DNA of 64,000 nt from Cupriavidus sp. IDO (GTDB lineage Bacteria; Pseudomonadota; Gammaproteobacteria; Burkholderiales; Burkholderiaceae), in assembly GCF_000812465.1 (NCBI RefSeq), contig NZ_JWMA01000104.1, positions 186,001 through 250,000 on the forward strand. The letters are read 5' to 3'. Under the pieces are notes generated by a model. That model searched no databases and was not told where the DNA came from. It saw only the letters and a program-made list of their open reading frames with translations. Each line of letters opens with the position of its first letter. Position 1 is the stretch's first letter. A program made the translations under genes and the position numbers. Shown here in pieces: positions 49,667-59,977 of the stretch.

Positions 49667-49861
49667 TGTTTCGGCAGCGGAAATCGGAAAGACCTGACTC
49701 CCAGACTGACAACGGCCGTTCGCACAAAGTTCGTGCAAGCCGGGCGGCGCGAGGCAAGGTGACCGGAATTGCACTATCCTCACTGCTCCACCGCTTCCCG
49801 CCCTGGCGCGGATTGCAAGTGGCGAACGACCAGCGGGCAACGCACCCAAGGAGTGTCCCCC

Positions 49862-50320
49862 ATGACTACCCTCAATATCAACGGCAAGTCGCAGGAAGTC
49901 GACGTTGATCCCTCCACGCCGCTCCTGTGGGCGCTGCGCGACAACCTTGACATGACCGGCACCAAGTTCGGCTGCGGCATGGCCGCCTGCGGCGCCTGCA
50001 CCGTGCATATCAACGGACAGGCCACGCGCAGCTGCGTTACGCCGGTCTCCGCGGCAGCCGGCGCGCGCATCACGACCATCGAAGGTGTAAGCACCGATAA
50101 AGTCGGCCGCGCCGTGCTCGATGCCTGGCTCAGGCATGACGTGGCCCAGTGCGGCTACTGCCAGAACGGCCAGGTGATGAGCGCCGTCGGCCTGCTGCGT
50201 GCCAAGCCGCGGCCGACCGATGCCGACATCGACCAGGCCATGGCGGGCAACCTGTGCCGCTGCGGCACCTACCAGCGGATCCGCGCGGCGATCAAGGATG
50301 CCGCCCGGGCGCTGGGCTGA
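49862..50320 (+). CDS. iorA: isoquinoline 1-oxidoreductase-type iron-sulfur subunit
   Basis: A 152-residue [2Fe-2S] subunit of a molybdenum hydroxylase. The plant-type cluster motif is [15 protein letters not shown]...C and the second cluster motif is CGYCQNGQ...CRCGTYQ. AAGGAG stands before ATG 49862. It feeds electrons from the IorB molybdenum site. It is 17 bases before iorB. Family members oxidise N-heterocycles or aldehydes; the substrate cannot be told. The symbol is by family. Confidence 0.9.
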
Positions 50321-50337
50321 GCACGGAGGAACCAGTC

Positions 50338-52593
50338 ATGCGTATTCGTGGAATCGAAGCCCTGGCCGGTGGCCAAGGCGGCAGTGCCGGCCCTGTGCCC
50401 GGCGAGGGTGCGGCCATGCTCGACCGCCGCGGCTTTCTCAAGCTGACCGGCCTGGCGGGCGGCGGGTTTGCGCTGGGCCTGGTGCCGGCCCTGGCATCGG
50501 CACAGGAAGCCGCGCCCAAGGCGCCGGCCTCGCCGCCCCAGGCGTTTCTCGTCATCTCGCCGGACAACACGGTCACCATCGCGGTGAACCGCCTCGAATT
50601 CGGCCAGGGTGTGCATACCGCGCTGCCGATGGCGCTGGCCGACGAACTGGATGCCGACTGGGGCAACGTGCGCGGCGCGCTCGCGCCCGCAGGCGATGCT
50701 TACAAGGATCCGGCCTTTGGCCTGCAGATGACCGGCGGCTCGACCGCGCTCAATCACTCCTTCCAGCAATACCGCGAACTGGGCGCCCGCGCCCGCGCGA
50801 TGCTGGTGGCGGCAGCCGCACAGCAGTGGAAGGTGGACCCGTCCAGCTGCAAGGTGGAGCAGGGCGTGATCACGTCCGGCAGCCACCGCGCCACCTTCGG
50901 CGAACTGGCGCAGGCTGCGATGGCGCTGCCGGTGCCGCAGCAGGTCACGCTCAAGGACCCGTCGCAGTTCCGGCTGATCGGCAAGCCCACGCCGCGGCTG
51001 GATTCGCGCGGCAAGCTGGAGGGCACCACCGCGTTCGGCATCGACACGCGCCTGAAGGACATGATGGTCGCGGTGGTGGCGCGTCCGCCGCGCTTTGGCG
51101 GCAAGGTCAAATCATTCAATGCCGACAAGGCGCGCGCCATCAAGGGCGTGAGCGACGTGATGCTGGTGCCGGTGGATCGCGGCGGTACCGGCGTGGCGGT
51201 GGTGGCCGATGGCTACTGGCCGGCCAAGCAGGGGCGCGATGCGTTGCAGATCGAATGGGAAGACACGGGCTCGAAGGTTTCGTCGCAGGCCTTGTTCGAC
51301 GAATACGCGAAGCTTGCCGGCCAGCCCGGCACAGTGGCGCGTGCCGGCGAGGGCGACATCGGCGCCGCCGTCAACGGTGCGGCGCGCAAGATCGAGGCCG
51401 ACTACCGCTTCCCGTATCTCGCGCACGCCCCGATGGAACCGCTGAACTGCACCATGCAGGCGGAGATCACGGGCAAGAAGGCGCAGAGCGTCAAGGTGTG
51501 GGTGGGCTCGCAGTTCCAGACCGTGGACCAGGCCGCCATTGCACGCGTGCTGGAGCTGAGCCCGGACAAGGTCACGCTCAACACCATGATGGCGGGCGGC
51601 GGCTTTGGCCGGCGCGCGGTGCCGACGTCCGACTACGTCGTCGAAGCCGCCAACGTGCTGCGCGCATGGATCGCCAGCGGCCACACCGAGCCGCTCAAGG
51701 TGATGTGGAGCCGCGAAGACGATATCCGCGGCGGCTACTACCGTCCGCTGCACGTGCACCGCGCGCGCATCGGCCTGGATGCGCAGGGCAAGGTGCTGGG
51801 CTGGCAGCACACCATCGTCGGGCAGTCGATCCTGAAGGGCACGCCGTTCGAGTCCTTCATGGTCAAGAACGGCGTGGACGCGACCATGACCGAAGGCATC
51901 GTGGAGAACGACTACAACCTGCCGCTGCAGCTCTCCGTCCACCATCCTCAGGTCGACGTGCCGGTGCTGTGGTGGCGCTCGGTCGGCAATACCCACACGG
52001 CCTTCGTCAAGGAGACGCTGGCGGACGAGCTGGCCGCCGCCGCCAAACAGGATCCGGTGGCCTACCGCCTGGCGCGGCTGGATGAAGCGAAGCACGCGCG
52101 TCATCGCGCCGCGCTGCAGCTGGCGGTGCTGAAGTCTGGCTACGGCAAGCGCAAGCTGCCCAAGGGCCATGCCTGGGGCGTGGCCCTGCATGAGTCGTTC
52201 GATACGGCGGTGGCCTACGTGGTCGAGGTGTCGGTAGTGAAGGGAGAGCCGCGCGTGCATCGTGTCACGGCTGGCGTGCATGCCAATCGGGTGGTCAACC
52301 CGATGTCGGCAGAGGCGCAGATCCAGGGCGCTTGCGTGTTCGGGCTGGCGATGATCAAGCCCGGGTTTGCCCTCGACATCGAGAACGGCGCGGTGAAGAA
52401 CAGCAACTTCCCGGACTATCCGCCGCCGCGCATTACCGATGCGCCGGTGGTGGAGGTGTTCTTCGTGCCTTCGCAGGACAACCCGACCGGCCTTGGCGAG
52501 CCGGGCGTGCCGCCGATTGCCCCCGCCGTGGCCAACGCGCTGTTCACGCTGACCGGCAAGCGCCAGCGGCAGTTGCCGTTTGTGATGGCGTAA
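50338..52593 (+). CDS. iorB: isoquinoline 1-oxidoreductase-type molybdenum subunit, Tat-exported
   Basis: A 751-residue molybdenum-binding subunit of the CO dehydrogenase/aldehyde oxidase family. The N-terminus carries a Tat signal (DRRGFLKLTGLAGGGFALGL at about 29-48). MoCo motifs include AHAPMEPLNCTM and MAGGGFGRRAV, and near the C-terminus GLGEPGVPPIAPAVANAL with the catalytic Glu. GGAGGAACC precedes ATG 50338. Tat export and lack of an FAD subunit indicate a periplasmic enzyme passing electrons to a cytochrome c, perhaps the one upstream. It needs molybdate from ModABC. Confidence 0.9.
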   Translation: MRIRGIEALAGGQGGSAGPVPGEGAAMLDRRGFLKLTGLAGGGFALGLVPALASAQEAAPKAPASPPQAFLVISPDNTVTIAVNRLEFGQGVHTALPMALADELDADWGNVRGALAPAGDAYKDPAFGLQMTGGSTALNHSFQQYRELGARARAMLVAAAAQQWKVDPSSCKVEQGVITSGSHRATFGELAQAAMALPVPQQVTLKDPSQFRLIGKPTPRLDSRGKLEGTTAFGIDTRLKDMMVAVVARPPRFGGKVKSFNADKARAIKGVSDVMLVPVDRGGTGVAVVADGYWPAKQGRDALQIEWEDTGSKVSSQALFDEYAKLAGQPGTVARAGEGDIGAAVNGAARKIEADYRFPYLAHAPMEPLNCTMQAEITGKKAQSVKVWVGSQFQTVDQAAIARVLELSPDKVTLNTMMAGGGFGRRAVPTSDYVVEAANVLRAWIASGHTEPLKVMWSREDDIRGGYYRPLHVHRARIGLDAQGKVLGWQHTIVGQSILKGTPFESFMVKNGVDATMTEGIVENDYNLPLQLSVHHPQVDVPVLWWRSVGNTHTAFVKETLADELAAAAKQDPVAYRLARLDEAKHARHRAALQLAVLKSGYGKRKLPKGHAWGVALHESFDTAVAYVVEVSVVKGEPRVHRVTAGVHANRVVNPMSAEAQIQGACVFGLAMIKPGFALDIENGAVKNSNFPDYPPPRITDAPVVEVFFVPSQDNPTGLGEPGVPPIAPAVANALFTLTGKRQRQLPFVMA

Positions 52594-52626: not shown

Positions 52627-52650
52627 AGAACCCATTATGAAATGGGTTCT
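52627..52650. terminator. bidirectional hairpin between iorB and the anti-sigma gene
   Basis: AGAACCCATT-ATGA-AATGGGTTCT is a perfect 10-bp stem between two converging genes. The right arm touches the anti-sigma stop codon. T tracts are short on both sides, so termination strength is uncertain. Confidence 0.65.
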
Positions 52651-53450
52651 TATTGCGCGCCGTCGGCCATGCGCCACGCCTTGCCGAAGCGGCGCAGGTC
52701 GGCCGCCGAGGCATCGGTCACCGCCCAGTAGTCCATGCCCCCCGCCTGCCAGCGCTCGATCTGATATCCCTGCCGGGCCAGCGCGCCTTCGATATCGGCA
52801 TCCGGTTTCCCCTTGCCCGCACCGGGCAGCACGAAGACATCGATCGGATGCTGGTTGCGCCGGTAGACCAGCACCGCCACCCGTTGCCCGTGGATGTAGT
52901 CGAGCCGCCCGCCGGCGAGCGGAAAGCCCTCGGCCGCCAGGTCATGGACCGGCGGCGCGTAGTCAAGCCGGCCGTTGAACCACGGCTTGACTGTATGGCG
53001 ATCGGTGGAGACGACGTCGATGGCGTGGTCGGCGATCAACGCGCGCACGTGGCTGCTGACGAGTTCGCGGGCCAAGGCGTCCTGTGGCGATTCCTGCTGC
53101 ATGAACAGCGTCAGCCCGAACGCCAGCGATGCCACCGTCACCGCCGCCATGCTGGCATTGAATGCCGGGCGCCAGGCGAACCAGTCGAGCCAGCGCGGGC
53201 GCTTCGCCTGGTCGGTGGGCGTCGTGGCGGGTGCCGGCAGTGCCGCGGCGAGCCGGGCGCGCAGCGCGGGGCTCGCATGGTGATAGGTGGCGCCTTGACG
53301 CACAGCCGCGCTTAGCGCGCGCAGGCGGCTGAGTTCCGCCGCACATGCGGCACATTTCGCCAGGTGCTGCTCCAGGCGCAGGCTATCCGCCGCACCGAGT
53401 TCGTTATCGGCGCAGGCGGGAAGCAGTTCGCAAACGTCATTGCAGTCCAT
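52650..53450 (-). CDS. ZAS-type anti-sigma factor
   Basis: A 266-residue membrane anti-sigma factor. The N-terminal zinc-binding motif is H29-x3-C33-x2-C36 in EQHLAKCAACAAEL. A single membrane helix lies at about 97-117 (AAVTVASLAFGLTLFM). The periplasmic domain has VVSTDRHTVKPWFNGRLDYA and FPLAGGRLDYIHGQRVAVLV, a pattern of anti-sigma proteins found with ECF factors. GGGGAGA precedes ATG 53450. It overlaps the sigma gene by 14 bases. It would hold the sigma factor inactive until a periplasmic signal arrives. Confidence 0.88.
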   Translation of the reverse strand: MDCNDVCELLPACADNELGAADSLRLEQHLAKCAACAAELSRLRALSAAVRQGATYHHASPALRARLAAALPAPATTPTDQAKRPRWLDWFAWRPAFNASMAAVTVASLAFGLTLFMQQESPQDALARELVSSHVRALIADHAIDVVSTDRHTVKPWFNGRLDYAPPVHDLAAEGFPLAGGRLDYIHGQRVAVLVYRRNQHPIDVFVLPGAGKGKPDADIEGALARQGYQIERWQAGGMDYWAVTDASAADLRRFGKAWRMADGAQ

Positions 53451-54115: not shown

Positions 54116-54145
54116 GGTATACCGACGCTTCGGTCAGTTTATTCC
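54116..54145 (-). promoter_or_regulatory. ECF promoter of the sigma/anti-sigma operon
   Basis: On the minus strand GGAATAAA is followed after 16 bases by TATACC, 47 bases before the sigma gene. The same motif and spacing occur on the plus strand 35 bases away. Confidence 0.72.
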
Positions 54146-54180
54146 CGTTGCAGCCTATTTTTAGCGAATCGCTGTCATCG

Positions 54181-54210
54181 GGAATAAATTCCGGTGCGCG
54201 CCGGTATGAC
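54181..54210 (+). promoter_or_regulatory. ECF promoter of the phosphoesterase/cupredoxin operon
   Basis: GGAATAAA, a 16-base spacer and TATGAC precede the metallophosphoesterase gene by 35 bases. The -35 elements of this and the sigma-gene promoter form a perfect inverted repeat, CGGGAATAAA (54179-54188) and TTTATTCCCG (54138-54147). Confidence 0.72.
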
Positions 54211-54244: not shown

Positions 54245-55123
54245 ATGAACACACTGAAGCGACGCGATTTCCTGAGGCTGGCCGGCGCTGCCGGCGGTGC
54301 GGTATTCGCCTCGGGACTGCCCGGCTGGGCCTACGGGCGAGATGAGGATTTCTACTTTGTCCAGCTGTCGGACGCGCACTGGGGCTTCCAGGGGCCGCCC
54401 AATCCCGACGCGCGGGGCACATTGCCCAAGGCGGTTGCCGCCGTCAATGCGCTGCCGCAGCCGCCGGATTTCATCATGTTCACCGGCGATCTCACGCACA
54501 CCACCGACGACCCGCAGGAACGACGCCGCCGCATGCGCGAATTCCAGTCGATCATTGCCGGCCTGAAGGTCAAGCCGGTCCATCTGATGCCGGGCGAGCA
54601 CGACGCCAGCCTCGATGCGGGCGCCGCCTACCAGGAGCTGTTCGGGCCCACGCACTACACCTTCGATCACAAGGGCGTGCATTTCATCGTGCTGGACAAC
54701 GTGTCCGATCCGGCCGGGCGGGTCGGGGATGCGCAGCGCGCGTGGCTGGCCGCCGACCTGGCGCACCAGCCAAAGGGCGCGCGCATCGTGGTCTTCACGC
54801 ACCGACCGCTGTTCGACCTGTATCCGCAATGGGACTGGGCCACGCGCGATGGCGCGCAGGTGATCGACACGCTGATGCCATATCCGAACGTGACCGTGTT
54901 CTACGGCCATATCCATCAGGAGCATCACCACATGACCGGCCACATTGCGCATCACGCCGCACGCTCGCTGATGTTCCCGCTGCCACCCCCGGGTTCGCAG
55001 CCGCAGCGCCTGCCGGTCCCCTGGGACGCGGCGCAGCCGTATCGCGGGCTGGGCTGGCGCGAGATCGAAGCGAAAGCGGCGCCGGGCTCGTTCGCGCTGG
55101 CCGAGCAACCGATCGCAACCTGA
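54245..55123 (+). CDS. Tat-exported metallophosphoesterase
   Basis: A 292-residue calcineurin-like phosphoesterase. The Tat signal is KRRDFLRLAGAAGGAVFASG. Metal-binding motifs are QLSDAHWGF (D and H), MFTGDLTHT, MPGEHDAS (GExH replacing the usual GNHD), VVFTHRPLF and FYGHIHQEHHH. GGAGG precedes ATG 54245. It lies 13 bases before the cupredoxin gene and under an ECF-type promoter. A periplasmic phosphatase or phosphodiesterase is likely; its substrate is not known. Confidence 0.9.
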   Translation: MNTLKRRDFLRLAGAAGGAVFASGLPGWAYGRDEDFYFVQLSDAHWGFQGPPNPDARGTLPKAVAAVNALPQPPDFIMFTGDLTHTTDDPQERRRRMREFQSIIAGLKVKPVHLMPGEHDASLDAGAAYQELFGPTHYTFDHKGVHFIVLDNVSDPAGRVGDAQRAWLAADLAHQPKGARIVVFTHRPLFDLYPQWDWATRDGAQVIDTLMPYPNVTVFYGHIHQEHHHMTGHIAHHAARSLMFPLPPPGSQPQRLPVPWDAAQPYRGLGWREIEAKAAPGSFALAEQPIAT

Positions 55124-55136
55124 ACCGGAGCCCACC

Positions 55137-55508
55137 ATGATTTCATCGATTGTCGGACGGCGCGCGGCGCTGGGCTGGATGCTCGGTCTCGGGGCGGCAT
55201 TGCTGGCCGGCTCCGGCCGGGGCGATGCGGCCGCGCCGCGCGTCATCCGCGTGCATGCGCGCAAATTCATCTTCACCCCGGATCACATCCCGCTGCGGGC
55301 CGGCGAGTCTGTCGTGTTCGAGCTGACGGCGCAGGACGTGATCATGGGCTTCAGCGTGCCGGACTTCGGCGTGCGGGCCGACGTGCCGCCGGGCATGACC
55401 GTGCGCCTGCCGGCCACGGCGCGTGCCGCCGGCAAATACGAGTTCCTCTGCGACATCTTCTGCGGATCGGGGCACGAGACGATGAACGGCGTTATCGAGG
55501 TTACCTAG
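55137..55508 (+). CDS. CuA-like cupredoxin-domain protein
   Basis: A 123-residue exported cupredoxin. The N-terminus MISSIVGRRAALGWMLGLGA is a signal or anchor with RR. The fold ends in CDIFCGSGHETM, giving the C105-x3-C109-x3-H113-x2-M116 arrangement of the CuA site in cytochrome oxidase subunit 2. The upstream histidine of CuA proteins is replaced by M70 in DVIMGFSVPDF, so the site is not standard. It is cotranscribed with the metallophosphoesterase. It may carry copper or electrons in an ECF-controlled periplasmic response. Confidence 0.85.
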   Translation: MISSIVGRRAALGWMLGLGAALLAGSGRGDAAAPRVIRVHARKFIFTPDHIPLRAGESVVFELTAQDVIMGFSVPDFGVRADVPPGMTVRLPATARAAGKYEFLCDIFCGSGHETMNGVIEVT

Positions 55509-55516
55509 GAGATCTT

Positions 55517-58500
55517 TCACGCGGGGCTGCCGCCCTTGCGCGCCTGCCGCGCCGCCTTGCGGCGCGTGTACCAGTAGTGCGCACGATCGAGGTAGAGATA
55601 GACCACCGGCGTGCTGAACAGCGTGAGCGCCTGGGACAGCACCAGGCCGCCCACCATTGCGTAGCCGAGCGGGCGCCGCAGCTCCGAACCGGCCCCGTGG
55701 CCCAGCATCAGCGGCAGCCCGGCCAGCAGCGCGCACATGGTGGTCATCATGATCGGGCGGAAGCGCAACAGGCAGGCCTGGTAGATGGCGTCGCGCGGCG
55801 ACAGGCCCTGTTCGCGCTCGGCGGTCAGCGCGAAGTCCACCATCATGATGCCGTTCTTCTTGACGATGCCGATCAGCAGGATGATGCCGATCAGCGCGAT
55901 CACGGTGAAATCGTAGCCGCCGATCAGCAGCACCAGCAGGGCGCCCACGCCCGCCGACGGCAGCGTCGACAGGATGGTGAGCGGATGGATATAGCTCTCG
56001 TACAGCAGGCCGAGCACGATATACACGGCGATCAGCGCGGCGGCGATCAGGTATGGCTGTGACGCCAGCGAAGCACCGAAGGCCTGTGCCGTACCCTGGA
56101 AGTTGCCGGTCAGCGCCTGCGGGCGGCCCATGCCGGCCAGTGCGCCGTTGATGGCCTTGACCGCATCGCCAAGCGCGGTGCCCGGCGCAAGGTTGAAGGA
56201 GATCGTCACCGCCGGAAACTGCCCCTGGTGGCTGATCGAGAGATAAGCGGTGCGGTTGGTGTCGACCGAGACGAACGACGACAACGGAACCTGCTCGCCG
56301 GTGATTGGCGAGGTCAGGTAGAGCCGGTGAAACAGCCGCGGGTCTTCCTGCAGGCGCGGCATGGCTTCCAGGATGACGTGGTAGCTGTTGATCTGCGTGA
56401 AGTACTGCGCCACCTGGCGCTGGCCGATGGCATCGTAGAGCGTGGCGTCGATCATTGCCGGCGTGATGCCGAAGCTCGAGGCGCGCGCGCGGTCGATGGT
56501 CAGCACGGCGGCGGCCGCGGCATTCTGCTGGTCGGATGCGACGTCGGTCAGTTGCGGCAGGGCGCGGAAGCGCTCCAGGATGCGGGGTGCCCACAGGTTG
56601 AGCTCGTCCAGGTTGGCGTCGGTCAGCGTGTACTGGTACTGCGTGCGCGACAGGCGGCCGCCCACATTGATATCCTGCCCGGCCTGCAGGAACAGGTTGG
56701 CGCCTTCCACCCTGGCCAGCTGCGGGCGCAGCCGGGCGATCACCTGGTCGGCCGTGACGGTGCGTCCTTCGTCCCTGGGGCGCAGGCTGATGAAGAAGTT
56801 GCCGGTGTTGATGGTGTTCTGGCCGGCGCTCATGCCGACCGCGGCCACGTCGGGGTCGGCGCGCACGATATCGGCAAGCTCGACCATGCGTGCGTTCATC
56901 GAGCGGAACGACGCATCCTGCGCCGACTCGGCAACGCCGAACATGAACCCGGTGTCCTGCTGCGGGAAGAAGCCCTTGGGGATGTAGACAAAGAGCCCGA
57001 CCGTGATGGCCACCGTCACCAGGAACACGCACAGCGTGGCGAACTGGTGGCGCAGCACGCGGTCCAGGCCGCGCTGGTAGGCGGACAGCATCAGGTCGAA
57101 GGCATGCTCGAACCACTGGTAAAGGCGCCCGTGCGGCTTGCCGGCCGCGGCTTCATGCGGGCGCAGGAAGCGCGAGCACAGCATTGGCGTCAGGGTCAGC
57201 GACACCACCACCGATAACGCGATGGTCAGCGTCACCGTCATCGCGAACTCGCGAAACAGGCGTCCGACAATGCCGCCCATCAGCAGCAGCGGGATAAACA
57301 CGGCCACCAGCGATACCGAGATCGAGACGATGGTGAAGCTGATCTCCGCCGCGCCCTGCAGCGCCGCGTCCATCGGCGACATGCCGGCCTCGACGTGCCG
57401 GTAGATATTCTCCAGCATCACAATGGCGTCATCGACCACAAAGCCCACCGCGATGGTCAGCGCCATCAGCGACAGGTTGTCGCGGCTGTAGCCCAGCAGG
57501 TACATGCCGCCCGCTGTGCCGAGCAGCGCCAGCGGCACGGTCACGCTCGGGATCAGCGTGGCGGGCACATTGCGCAGGAACACGAAGATGATCATCACCA
57601 CCAGCGCCACGGTCAGCAACAAAGTGAATTCCACGTCGGCTTCCGAGGCGCGGATGGTCTGGGTGCGGTCGGCCAGCGTATTGACCACGACCGACGGCGG
57701 GATCGACGCCTGCAGCCGCGGCAGGGCGGCGCGGATGCGGTCCACCGTGGCGATCACGTTGGCGCCGGGCTGCTTGGTGACGGCCAGGATGATGGCACGC
57801 CCGTTCTGGAAGGCGCTGTCTGCCGGCGCCGCAGCGCCACCGAAGCCCCAGGCGCCGAGCTTCGCGTTCTCGGGGCCGTCCACCGCCACCCCCACGTCGC
57901 GCACGCGCACCGGCGCGCCGTTGCGGTAGGCCAGCAGCATGTCGTTCCACGGGGCGGCGCGCGTGAGCTGGTCATTGGTGTACACGCTGAAGGCCTTGCT
58001 CGCGCCCTCGGTGCTGCCGGTGGGCTGGTTCACGGTGGTCGCCGCAATCACGCCGCGAATGTCCTCCAGGCTCAGGCCCAGCGCAGCCAGCTTCTCGGGG
58101 TCGACCTGGATGCGCACGGCCGGCTTCTGCTGCCCGCCGATATTGACCAGCCCCACGCCGGGGATCTGCGAGATCTGCTGCGCAAGGATATTGTCGGCAA
58201 AGTCATTGATCACGGTCAGCGGCAGCGCTTCCGACTGCACGGCAAGCACCAGGATGGGCGAATCGGCCGGATTGATCTTGCGGAAGGTGGGCGGGCTCGG
58301 CAGGTTGCTGGGCAGCTGTCCGCCGGCGGCGTTGATGGCCGCCTGGACGTCGACCGCGGCGGCGTCGATGCTGCGGTTGAGGTCGAACTGCAGGGTGATC
58401 TGCGTATTGCCCTGCGCGCTGGTCGAGGTCATCTGCGTGAGCCCGGCAATCAGCGAGAACTGCCGCTCGAGCGGCTGCGCCACGTTGGATGCGATGGTCT

Positions 58501-58669
58501 CGGGGCTGGCCCCGGGCAGCGTGGCGGATACCTGGATGGTGGGGAAGTCCACCTGCGGCAGCGGCGCGATCGGCAGTAGCGGCCACGCCGCAACGCCCAC
58601 CAGCAGCAGCGCCAGCGCAAGCAGCGAAGTGCCGATGGGCCGGCGGATGAAGTTGGCCGAAACACTCAT
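55517..58669 (-). CDS. RND efflux transporter, MdtC/HAE1-like
   Basis: A 1050-residue inner-membrane pump with 12 helices in the RND pattern. Motifs include FIRRPIGTSLLALALLLVG at the N-terminus, ALTIAVGFVVDDAIVMLENI in helix 4 with the proton-relay aspartates, and VFIPLLLMGGIVGRLFREFA. Two large periplasmic loops carry porter domains. It resembles MdtC/MuxC of the heterotrimeric MdtABC family, but no second RND gene is seen. It overlaps the adaptor gene by four bases. Drug range is unknown. The outer-membrane factor is not in the window. Confidence 0.92.
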   Translation of the reverse strand: MSVSANFIRRPIGTSLLALALLLVGVAAWPLLPIAPLPQVDFPTIQVSATLPGASPETIASNVAQPLERQFSLIAGLTQMTSTSAQGNTQITLQFDLNRSIDAAAVDVQAAINAAGGQLPSNLPSPPTFRKINPADSPILVLAVQSEALPLTVINDFADNILAQQISQIPGVGLVNIGGQQKPAVRIQVDPEKLAALGLSLEDIRGVIAATTVNQPTGSTEGASKAFSVYTNDQLTRAAPWNDMLLAYRNGAPVRVRDVGVAVDGPENAKLGAWGFGGAAAPADSAFQNGRAIILAVTKQPGANVIATVDRIRAALPRLQASIPPSVVVNTLADRTQTIRASEADVEFTLLLTVALVVMIIFVFLRNVPATLIPSVTVPLALLGTAGGMYLLGYSRDNLSLMALTIAVGFVVDDAIVMLENIYRHVEAGMSPMDAALQGAAEISFTIVSISVSLVAVFIPLLLMGGIVGRLFREFAMTVTLTIALSVVVSLTLTPMLCSRFLRPHEAAAGKPHGRLYQWFEHAFDLMLSAYQRGLDRVLRHQFATLCVFLVTVAITVGLFVYIPKGFFPQQDTGFMFGVAESAQDASFRSMNARMVELADIVRADPDVAAVGMSAGQNTINTGNFFISLRPRDEGRTVTADQVIARLRPQLARVEGANLFLQAGQDINVGGRLSRTQYQYTLTDANLDELNLWAPRILERFRALPQLTDVASDQQNAAAAAVLTIDRARASSFGITPAMIDATLYDAIGQRQVAQYFTQINSYHVILEAMPRLQEDPRLFHRLYLTSPITGEQVPLSSFVSVDTNRTAYLSISHQGQFPAVTISFNLAPGTALGDAVKAINGALAGMGRPQALTGNFQGTAQAFGASLASQPYLIAAALIAVYIVLGLLYESYIHPLTILSTLPSAGVGALLVLLIGGYDFTVIALIGIILLIGIVKKNGIMMVDFALTAEREQGLSPRDAIYQACLLRFRPIMMTTMCALLAGLPLMLGHGAGSELRRPLGYAMVGGLVLSQALTLFSTPVVYLYLDRAHYWYTRRKAARQARKGGSPA

Positions 58670-59853
58670 GGACGTGCTGCCGCGCCCTGGGGAGCGCTAC
58701 CGGCGTTCGCCCGCGCTTCCGTGATGCGCGCGCCCGGCTTGAGCTTGTACTGGCCGTCCGCCACCACGCGCTCGCCGGCCTTGAGCCCCCTGGACACGAC
58801 GGCCAGCCCGCCCTGCAGCTCGGCCACCTCGATCGGCTGTATGCGCACGGTCTGGTCCGGCTGGACCGCGTAGACATACGGCCCCGCCTCGCGGCGCTGC
58901 ACCGCCGCCGCGGGGATCGTCACCGAGCGCTCGAGCTCTCCCAGCACCAGCCGCGCATTGACGTACTGGCCCGGCCACAGCGCATGCGACGGATTGGGGA
59001 AGCGCGCCTTGAGCTGGATGGTGCCGCTGGTGGTGTCGATGGTGTTGTTCACCAGGATCAGGCCGCCCTGGCCGAGCTGCTCGTCGCTGCTGCGCTCGTA
59101 GGCATAGACCGGAAGCGGCGTCTTGCTTTCCAGCACGGCGCGGTTGATGCGGCGCAGCGTGTCGTCGGGCAGCGTGAACACCACGTCGATCGGGTCGATC
59201 TGGCGGATCACCACGAGTCCGGTCGTATCCGCTGCGTGGACGATATTGCCGGGATCGACCAGCCGCGCGCCCACCCGGCCAGAAATCGGCGCGGTAATGG
59301 TGGTGTAGTCGAGCTGCACGCGGGCCAGGCTGACCTGCGCTTCATCCGTTTTCACGGCCGCGGCAAGCTGGGCCACCAGCGCACGCTGGGTATCGACGGT
59401 CTGCCTGGTGGTGGAGTCCACCCGGATCAGTTCTTCATAGCGCTGCAGGTCCAGCCGCGCGTTGGCCAGCTGCGCCTCGTCGCGCGCCTTCTGCGCCTGC
59501 GCCTGCTGGAGCTGTGCCTGGAAGGTGCGCGGGTCGATCTGCGCCAGCACCTGTCCGGCCTTCACGTCCTGGCCCTCGACAAAGCCCACGCGCTCCAGCT
59601 CGCCGTCCACGCGCGGCTTGACCGTGACGGTCGCCATGGCCTGGACCGTGCCCACGCCGGCCAAGCTGAGCGGTACGGTTTCTTCGCGCACCGGCGCCGT
59701 CGTAACGGCGATTGCCGGCGGGGCGGGCGCGGCCGCGCGCGGAGCCCGCATGCGTGCCAGCGCGATTGCGGCGAGCCAGCACGCCGCCAGGAACGCTATG
59801 CCGGCGGCGGCAATCAGGATGCGCTTGCGATGCTGGAAGGGGACTGGCGGCAT
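58666..59853 (-). CDS. RND efflux membrane-fusion protein, MdtA-like
   Basis: A 395-residue periplasmic adaptor. A membrane/lipid anchor lies at about 12-32, a barrel-sandwich hybrid domain has VKPRVDGELERVGFVEGQDV and LDYTTITAPISGRVGARLVD, an alpha-hairpin lies between them (AQLQQAQAQKARDEAQLANA), and a C-terminal beta domain follows. It links the RND pump to an outer-membrane channel. The ATG at 59853 is taken; a GTG at 59862 is also possible. It is first of a two-gene operon. Confidence 0.9.
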   Translation of the reverse strand: MPPVPFQHRKRILIAAAGIAFLAACWLAAIALARMRAPRAAAPAPPAIAVTTAPVREETVPLSLAGVGTVQAMATVTVKPRVDGELERVGFVEGQDVKAGQVLAQIDPRTFQAQLQQAQAQKARDEAQLANARLDLQRYEELIRVDSTTRQTVDTQRALVAQLAAAVKTDEAQVSLARVQLDYTTITAPISGRVGARLVDPGNIVHAADTTGLVVIRQIDPIDVVFTLPDDTLRRINRAVLESKTPLPVYAYERSSDEQLGQGGLILVNNTIDTTSGTIQLKARFPNPSHALWPGQYVNARLVLGELERSVTIPAAAVQRREAGPYVYAVQPDQTVRIQPIEVAELQGGLAVVSRGLKAGERVVADGQYKLKPGARITEARANAGSAPQGAAARP

Positions 59854-59977
59854 GCTTTTCACTCACATAAGCATAGTTCGCCACTGCAGCAGGCGGTACG
59901 GCGGCGTATTACGGATTATTTCCGCCGGCGCCGCGCGAGTGACGATACCGATACTGCGCCGGCGCTATCATGGAGGC

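Follow-up and report, generated by a model that had tools for sequence, protein, structure and literature searches.

The window, by which we mean the whole stretch of 64,000 nt analysed from Cupriavidus sp. IDO (NZ_JWMA01000104.1, positions 186,001-250,000), contains two divergent gene pairs, one for an ECF sigma factor and an anti-sigma factor and the other for a metallophosphoesterase (MPE) and a small cupredoxin. All coordinates below are window positions, and the features are as follows:

52650..53450, minus strand: anti-sigma factor; zf-HC2 domain above the Pfam cut-off, Hx3Cx2C motif, one probable membrane helix
53437..54069, minus strand: ECF sigma factor, 210 aa (NF009185/PRK12533), ECF26-like by promoter
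54119..54146, minus strand: promoter-like site GGGAATA-N15-CGGTAT, expected to drive the sigma and anti-sigma genes
54138..54188 (arms 54138-54147 and 54179-54188), no strand: 10-bp inverted repeat formed by the two -35 elements
54180..54207, plus strand: promoter-like site GGGAATA-N15-CGGTAT, expected to drive the MPE and cupredoxin genes
54245..55123, plus strand: Tat-signal calcineurin-like MPE, 292 aa, GEHD family; structure model closest to GpdQ and Rv0805
55137..55508, plus strand: small exported CuA-like cupredoxin, 123 aa; Met70-Cys105-Cys109-His113-Met116

The sigma factor matches NF009185 (PRK12533) with 306.3 bits over residues 4-209 (cut-off 248), and is about 38% identical over residues 24-194 to a Sinorhizobium meliloti sigma factor encoded divergently from an S8 serine peptidase, an arrangement that has been described for S. 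meliloti RpoE6. Both window sites carry the -35 GGAATA and -10 GT elements of ECF26 promoters, as given in PMC6180224, and it is by this fit to the published consensus that the factor appears ECF26-like. The anti-sigma factor has the N-terminal Hx3Cx2C zinc finger of ZAS proteins, its zf-HC2 match lying above the Pfam cut-off, and a conserved periplasmic domain (SHVR..DRHTVKPWFNGRLDYAPPV); the helix and the Hx3Cx2C motif were read from the translation. The zinc finger of the preliminary description is present in the window protein, but it is not universal: of 75 anti-sigma matches, with protein starts guessed by script, 49 have Hx3Cx2C.

The gap between the sigma and MPE genes was earlier described as carrying divergent GGAATAAA-N16-TAT elements on both strands, and two such outward-facing copies are present, one on the minus strand (GGAATAAA-N16-TATACC, 54145 to 54116) and one on the plus strand (GGAATAAA-N16-TATGAC, 54181-54210). 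Their -35 parts, TTTATTCCCG and CGGGAATAAA, when read by eye, form the perfect 10-bp inverted repeat that had been claimed for them. With up to one mismatch allowed in GGAATAAA-N16-TAT, the window has two matches against a mean of 0.02 in shuffled sequence, and at least two matches were seen in 0/100 shuffles. When sigma loci from across the genus were compared, the pattern could be sharpened to GGGAATA-N15-CGGTAT.

The genome-wide search for GGAATAAA-N16-TAT that the preliminary description had proposed as a check returned four exact matches in the 7.93-Mb assembly and none for the reversed pattern. The match on contig C65, about 330 bp before a likely exported-protein gene, has no CGGTAT and was taken as chance. 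The sharpened pattern is matched exactly at three places in the assembly, the two window sites and one on contig C198, and the reversed control again at none. Allowing one mismatch at the right spacing added four sites genome-wide against two control matches; none of them therefore stands out, and a wider regulon in this genome was rejected. GGGAATA with an N16 spacer, which serves as a control, gave seven one-mismatch sites and three reversed-pattern matches, with none at the locus.

The C198 site adjoins a lipoprotein-like gene whose 84%-identical counterpart in another genome of the genus (G030) lies immediately upstream of a sigma paralogue. Contigs C198 and C202 both begin with sequence that matches neighbouring parts of the G030 region. 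Because of this synteny, the C198 site probably also belongs to the surroundings and family of a sigma paralogue, namely the one on C202 (L042:515-1826), which is 63% identical to the window factor and is accompanied by an anti-sigma factor with no zinc finger. The C198 site itself (L044:174-201) points away, toward the 3' end of the lipoprotein gene, and no MPE match was found near the paralogue or the site within the 6-kb stretch read.

Across 60 genomes of the genus, the sharpened pattern has 48 exact matches in 30 genomes, compared with one for the reversed control. When coordinates were compared by hand, 44 of these sites had a sigma orthologue or paralogue no more than 200 bp away; G037:C1, G022:C8, G005:C8 and the C198 site make up the remainder. 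Sigma orthologues or paralogues at E < 1e-40, the threshold by which a genome was counted as sigma-bearing, occur in 34 of the 60 genomes. The site is present in 29 of these (28 adjacent, the G005 site being elsewhere) versus 1 of the 26 others, a difference whose Fisher p of 1.2e-10 overstates the evidence because the genomes are related. The spacing is likewise constant: with spacers of 10 to 20 bp allowed, GGAATA-CGGTA pairs have a 15-bp spacer in 56/56 cases at the 30 genus loci and in 63/64 at the best 80 loci of the named-genome scan described below, some species being in both sets. The window shuffles, the reversed-pattern control in the genus, the association with the sigma factor and the constancy of the spacer together rule out a chance origin of the motif.

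All four genes of the module were matched in 28 of 30 genus sigma loci (the window's own included), and the two exceptions, L028 and L033, have the sigma factor and an anti-sigma match that starts after the zinc finger. The promoter pattern occurs in 27 of the 30 loci and on both sides in 13; conservation of the paired motifs in orthologous regions, set earlier as a check, was thereby found across Cupriavidus relatives. Every one of the 30 genus genomes that carry a full-length close MPE also has a sigma match at E < 1e-56; in G024 and G053 this match lies in two pieces beside the MPE gene. In G046 an MPE relative (C22:99184-99971) is split over two frames and the best sigma match of the genome reaches only E 1.1e-16, which suggests decay of the module.

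A wider scan of named genomes with the MPE alignment gave 577 confirmed matches, of which the best 80 were kept and partners sought within 3 kb of the MPE gene. Among these 80 loci, where some contigs end nearby, a cupredoxin was matched in 78, the sigma factor in 77, the anti-sigma factor in 75 and all four genes in 73; in L174 the sigma match does not adjoin the anti-sigma gene. These best loci come mainly from Betaproteobacteria, with draft genomes assigned to Acidobacteria, Cyanobacteria/Melainabacteria, Bacteriovoracaceae, Magnetospirillum and Gammaproteobacteria also represented. Once frames over the four genes were excluded, the most frequent neighbour family was a LysR-like one, seen at 14/80 loci. 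In the window, a 2Fe-2S/molybdopterin oxidoreductase pair (49769-52593, read from ORFs) adjoins the anti-sigma gene; since just 6 of the 80 best loci share a frame covering it, the pair is not regarded as part of the module. An RND efflux pump and membrane-fusion protein (55517-59862, minus strand, also read from ORFs) are convergent with the cupredoxin gene.

The position of the promoter was compared with the gene order in these 80 loci. A strict site, defined as GGAATA, 13-17 bases and CGGTA, lies upstream of the MPE gene in 20 and of the sigma gene in 25 of the 61 divergent loci, being absent from 41 and 36, respectively; a looser form raises the counts to 40 and 42 (absent from 21 and 19), with some of these sites implausibly far upstream. 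In the 16 same-strand loci, the strict site precedes the MPE gene in nine and the sigma gene in none (loose form, 10 and 4), and in two of them, L169 and L170, the sigma and anti-sigma genes come first. Loci that resemble a single operon thus tend to keep the site at the front, as expected of the module's own promoter. The strict site was absent from the three loci with no sigma match (loose form, one) and from upstream of all 78 cupredoxin genes, and with 20 shuffles per upstream region strict hits numbered 0/1600 for the MPE, 2/1540 for sigma and 0/1560 for the cupredoxin. Against this, many of the 80 loci, some Oxalobacteraceae among them, lack a recognisable site on both sides, which means that other lineages have a drifted promoter or a different one.

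The MPE has a PF00149 match of 46.9 bits (cut-off 21.5). Its description as a Tat-exported protein holds by the NCBIfam Tat model (19.0, cut-off 16.7) but not by the Pfam model (16.3, cut-off 22.7). The structure model has a mean pLDDT of 70.6 and a weak C-terminal part; Foldseek places it in the metallophosphoesterase fold, closest to GpdQ (3d03, E 1.6e-10) and Rv0805. The family profile aligns GEHD with the GNHD of both proteins, in agreement with the substitution noted earlier, and Glu118 of this motif is Glu in 81/81 rows (reference included), so that no row has GNHD. The other dinuclear-site residues, Asp43, His45, Asp82, His119, His186, His222 and His224, are likewise kept in 81/81 rows. 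Of nine PF00149 matches in the own genome, six have a readable motif, which is GNHD or GNHE in five and GEHD in the window MPE. Contig C2 of the own genome carries a second GEHD MPE (39%; L210, 34336-35253), which is immediately followed by a gene for a plastocyanin-type cupredoxin; this locus has no sigma match. A defence-system reading of the MPE was set aside, there being one weak PADLOC match (E 0.016).

The cupredoxin was called by its Cupredoxin_1/COX2 domain. Aligned with Thermus CuA, it keeps Cys105, Cys109, His113 and Met116, and Met70 replaces the first His. The CuA ligand motif is Hx34Cx3Cx3Hx2M (PMC6189053); where it begins with His, the window protein and 28/28 genus rows have Met70, in line with the modified CuA site that had been proposed. 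Over 79 rows (window included), Cys105, Cys109 and His113 are invariant, Met116 is once Leu, and position 70 is occupied by Met 47 times and by His 32 times. Mapped on a quick MPE tree, the His/Met label requires about six changes by parsimony (about 25 when shuffled), and well-supported branches force at least two. A CuA-like family with an alternating His/Met first ligand offers a natural series for copper-site chemistry.

The preliminary description had found no known joint role for the MPE and the cupredoxin, a statement that can be sharpened because distant GEHD MPEs adjoin different electron carriers. In a search of 398 genomes of the phylum, 20 MPE loci were found besides the window's own, four of which had also turned up in another search, and GEHD is present in all 20 (19 by pattern, L209 by reading). 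The partner is a plastocyanin-type cupredoxin in 15, a CuA-like protein in two, a CxxCH protein (cytochrome c) in two and none recognised in one; a sigma match lies inside the locus in 14, and none was found within the 1.5-kb flanks in the other six. GEHD is also present in MPE proteins of Mycobacterium abscessus and S. meliloti. On an M. abscessus plasmid the order is sigma, Rieske-domain protein, plastocyanin-family cupredoxin and MPE. The gene after this ECF sigma (L185:2574-3278) encodes a Rieske [2Fe-2S] domain that is preceded by an N-terminal stretch with a probable helix; it sits where an anti-sigma gene would be expected, and its product is possibly a redox-sensing anti-sigma factor. 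On S. meliloti pSymA (L184:3797-5417) the GEHD MPE is followed by a SoxA/TsdA-type cytochrome c protein, annotated as hypothetical, with SoxYZ, an SCO protein and an FAD oxidoreductase nearby, and the region may be an unusual Sox-like cluster. A cupredoxin gene directly precedes the MPE gene on a Streptomyces plasmid. The MPE matches on Burkholderia vietnamiensis and Methylocystis plasmids have no annotated carrier gene as immediate neighbour, which speaks against the link, and a further record carries no annotation at its match. Since the carriers have three or four unrelated folds, this neighbourhood evidence suggests that electron transfer explains the association better than one copper-specific role.

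The two sites, their conservation at a fixed spacing, their nearly exclusive placement beside this sigma family in the genus and the co-inheritance of the four genes are all legible in the DNA itself. The earlier proposal that the sigma factor controls itself and the two exported proteins gains support from the conservation, the fixed spacer, the genome-wide rarity of the site and the changes in gene order, and the ECF sigma factor very probably turns on its own gene together with those of the MPE and the cupredoxin. In the mechanism that we infer, the sigma factor would be bound and held at the membrane by the co-transcribed anti-sigma factor, a signal in the envelope would free it, and the freed factor would read the twin GGGAATA-N15-CGGTAT sites and transcribe its own operon and the divergent MPE-cupredoxin operon. 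The MPE-fold protein might then work with the cupredoxin as electron carrier, answering redox or sulfur stress in the envelope. Taken as a whole, we hold with good confidence that the locus is a self-contained ECF sigma module, the most likely role of its exported pair being a periplasmic redox-linked function. Considered separately, the assignment of one such function to the pair, drawn from gene neighbourhood, is tentative and falls somewhat short of an even chance, and the closest solved relatives of the MPE, GpdQ and Rv0805, are hydrolases, which speaks against it.

Three other readings bear on how the sites and the exported pair are to be understood. The paired sites could be one operator, with a dimeric regulator binding the inverted repeat between two sigma-70 promoters, and the repeat is indeed perfect in the window and a gap of 36 bp recurs often in relatives. 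However, both sites are present in 46 of 110 loci (30 genus and 80 named-genome loci, some species being in both sets), and the distance separating their -35 elements ranges from 8 to 246 bp over 22 different values, most often 36 bp, whereas the spacer from -35 to -10 stays at 15, and same-strand loci have single sites. The variable gap therefore rules out an operator of fixed geometry, and the operator reading as a whole is very improbable; to judge from this variation, the inverted repeat is a by-product of back-to-back promoters, the consequence of two identical -35 elements that face each other. The sites might also be read by another ECF sigma factor, such as the C202 paralogue, with cross-talk that would leave the regulon not self-contained. 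That paralogue resides in the same genome, paralogues of this kind have exact sites next to them in G042, G013 and G053, and S. meliloti ECF26 factors overlap in their targets according to PMC3511301, but G029, G031, G035 and G036 carry the locus and its sites with only one high-scoring sigma match, and we regard cross-talk as unlikely.

A further reading accepts the regulon as real and takes the MPE for an ordinary periplasmic phosphodiesterase and the cupredoxin for a copper chaperone or buffer, the whole being a copper- or phosphate-linked stress response with no redox catalysis. It agrees with the retention of the remaining GpdQ/Rv0805-class dinuclear-site residues in every row, and ECF factors of Cupriavidus are discussed as regulators of metal handling in PMC7019866. 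Against it, MPEs of the same family adjoin cytochrome c and, in one locus where a cupredoxin is also present, a Rieske protein beside that cupredoxin; neither cytochrome c nor a Rieske protein is a copper chaperone, and the poverty of recurrent neighbours around the 80 best loci does not favour a copper or phosphate response; this reading is a real possibility that we nevertheless consider doubtful. The redox-linked reading can also be extended to the family: GEHD MPEs may be widespread but unrecognised periplasmic redox enzymes, often induced by ECF26-like factors, in which a carboxylate-altered dinuclear centre exchanges electrons with an interchangeable carrier (CuA-like or plastocyanin-type cupredoxin, SoxA/TsdA-type cytochrome c, possibly a Rieske protein), a generalisation that is speculative and rather unlikely as it stands.

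The ordinary part of the locus is thus a self-regulated ECF pair with a divergent target, and the less ordinary part is a GEHD family tied to electron carriers. An MPE family with GEHD in place of GNHD beside varied electron carriers is the new element, and it suggests a redox-linked enzyme; the replacement of one carrier by another beside a variant phosphoesterase is a testable clue to the function of the exported pair. As regulation, the locus is in addition a small ECF regulon of unusual clarity that is readily tested and might serve as an orthogonal promoter. The literature searched yielded neither the four-gene module nor a published function for the MPE-cupredoxin pair; in it, metallophosphoesterase and cupredoxin appear together only in the context of plant GPI-anchored proteins.

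Among known systems, GpdQ and Rv0805, both labelled class III phosphodiesterases, share with the window MPE the fold and the DxH...GD...H...GHxH ligands, at 16-21% identity in the structural matches; the window protein differs in having Glu for the Asn of GNHD, a Tat signal and an adjoining cupredoxin gene. SoxB is an MPE-fold enzyme that works with the SoxA cytochrome, and the S. meliloti GEHD MPE, which adjoins a SoxA/TsdA-type cytochrome near SoxYZ, offers a possible parallel; no Sox genes were recognised among the window genes adjoining the module. The cupredoxin resembles the CuA domain of cytochrome c oxidase subunit II and nitrous-oxide reductase in its Cx3Cx3Hx2M motif and domain similarity, with the canonical His in 32 of 79 rows. 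Unlike these CuA domains it is a stand-alone exported protein with Met for the first His, and no conserved oxidase gene was found around the module in the 80 best loci. PmoD of methane oxidisers is likewise a periplasmic cupredoxin with an unusual CuA ligand set, but its site lies at a homodimer interface and has another motif (PMC6189053).

The nearest regulatory parallel is found in the S. meliloti ECF26 factors RpoE4 and RpoE1 (PMC6180224, PMC6527743). The window sites differ in their -10 element, CGGTAT, from the sulfite-response promoters of S. meliloti, which have GGAAT and CGTC (PMC6527743), and the window targets are an MPE and a CuA-like cupredoxin rather than a sulfite dehydrogenase. 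On the other hand, the -35 GGAATA and the -10 GT are those of the ECF26 consensus, the GGAAT-N18-GT geometry is that of the rpoE4 promoter (PMC6180224), and in both cases the sigma gene is followed by an anti-sigma gene. The RpoE4/RpoE1 targets, moreover, pair an enzyme with electron carriers, the sorT-sorU-azu2 genes comprising those of a sulfite dehydrogenase with cytochrome c and pseudoazurin (PMC6180224, PMC6527743).
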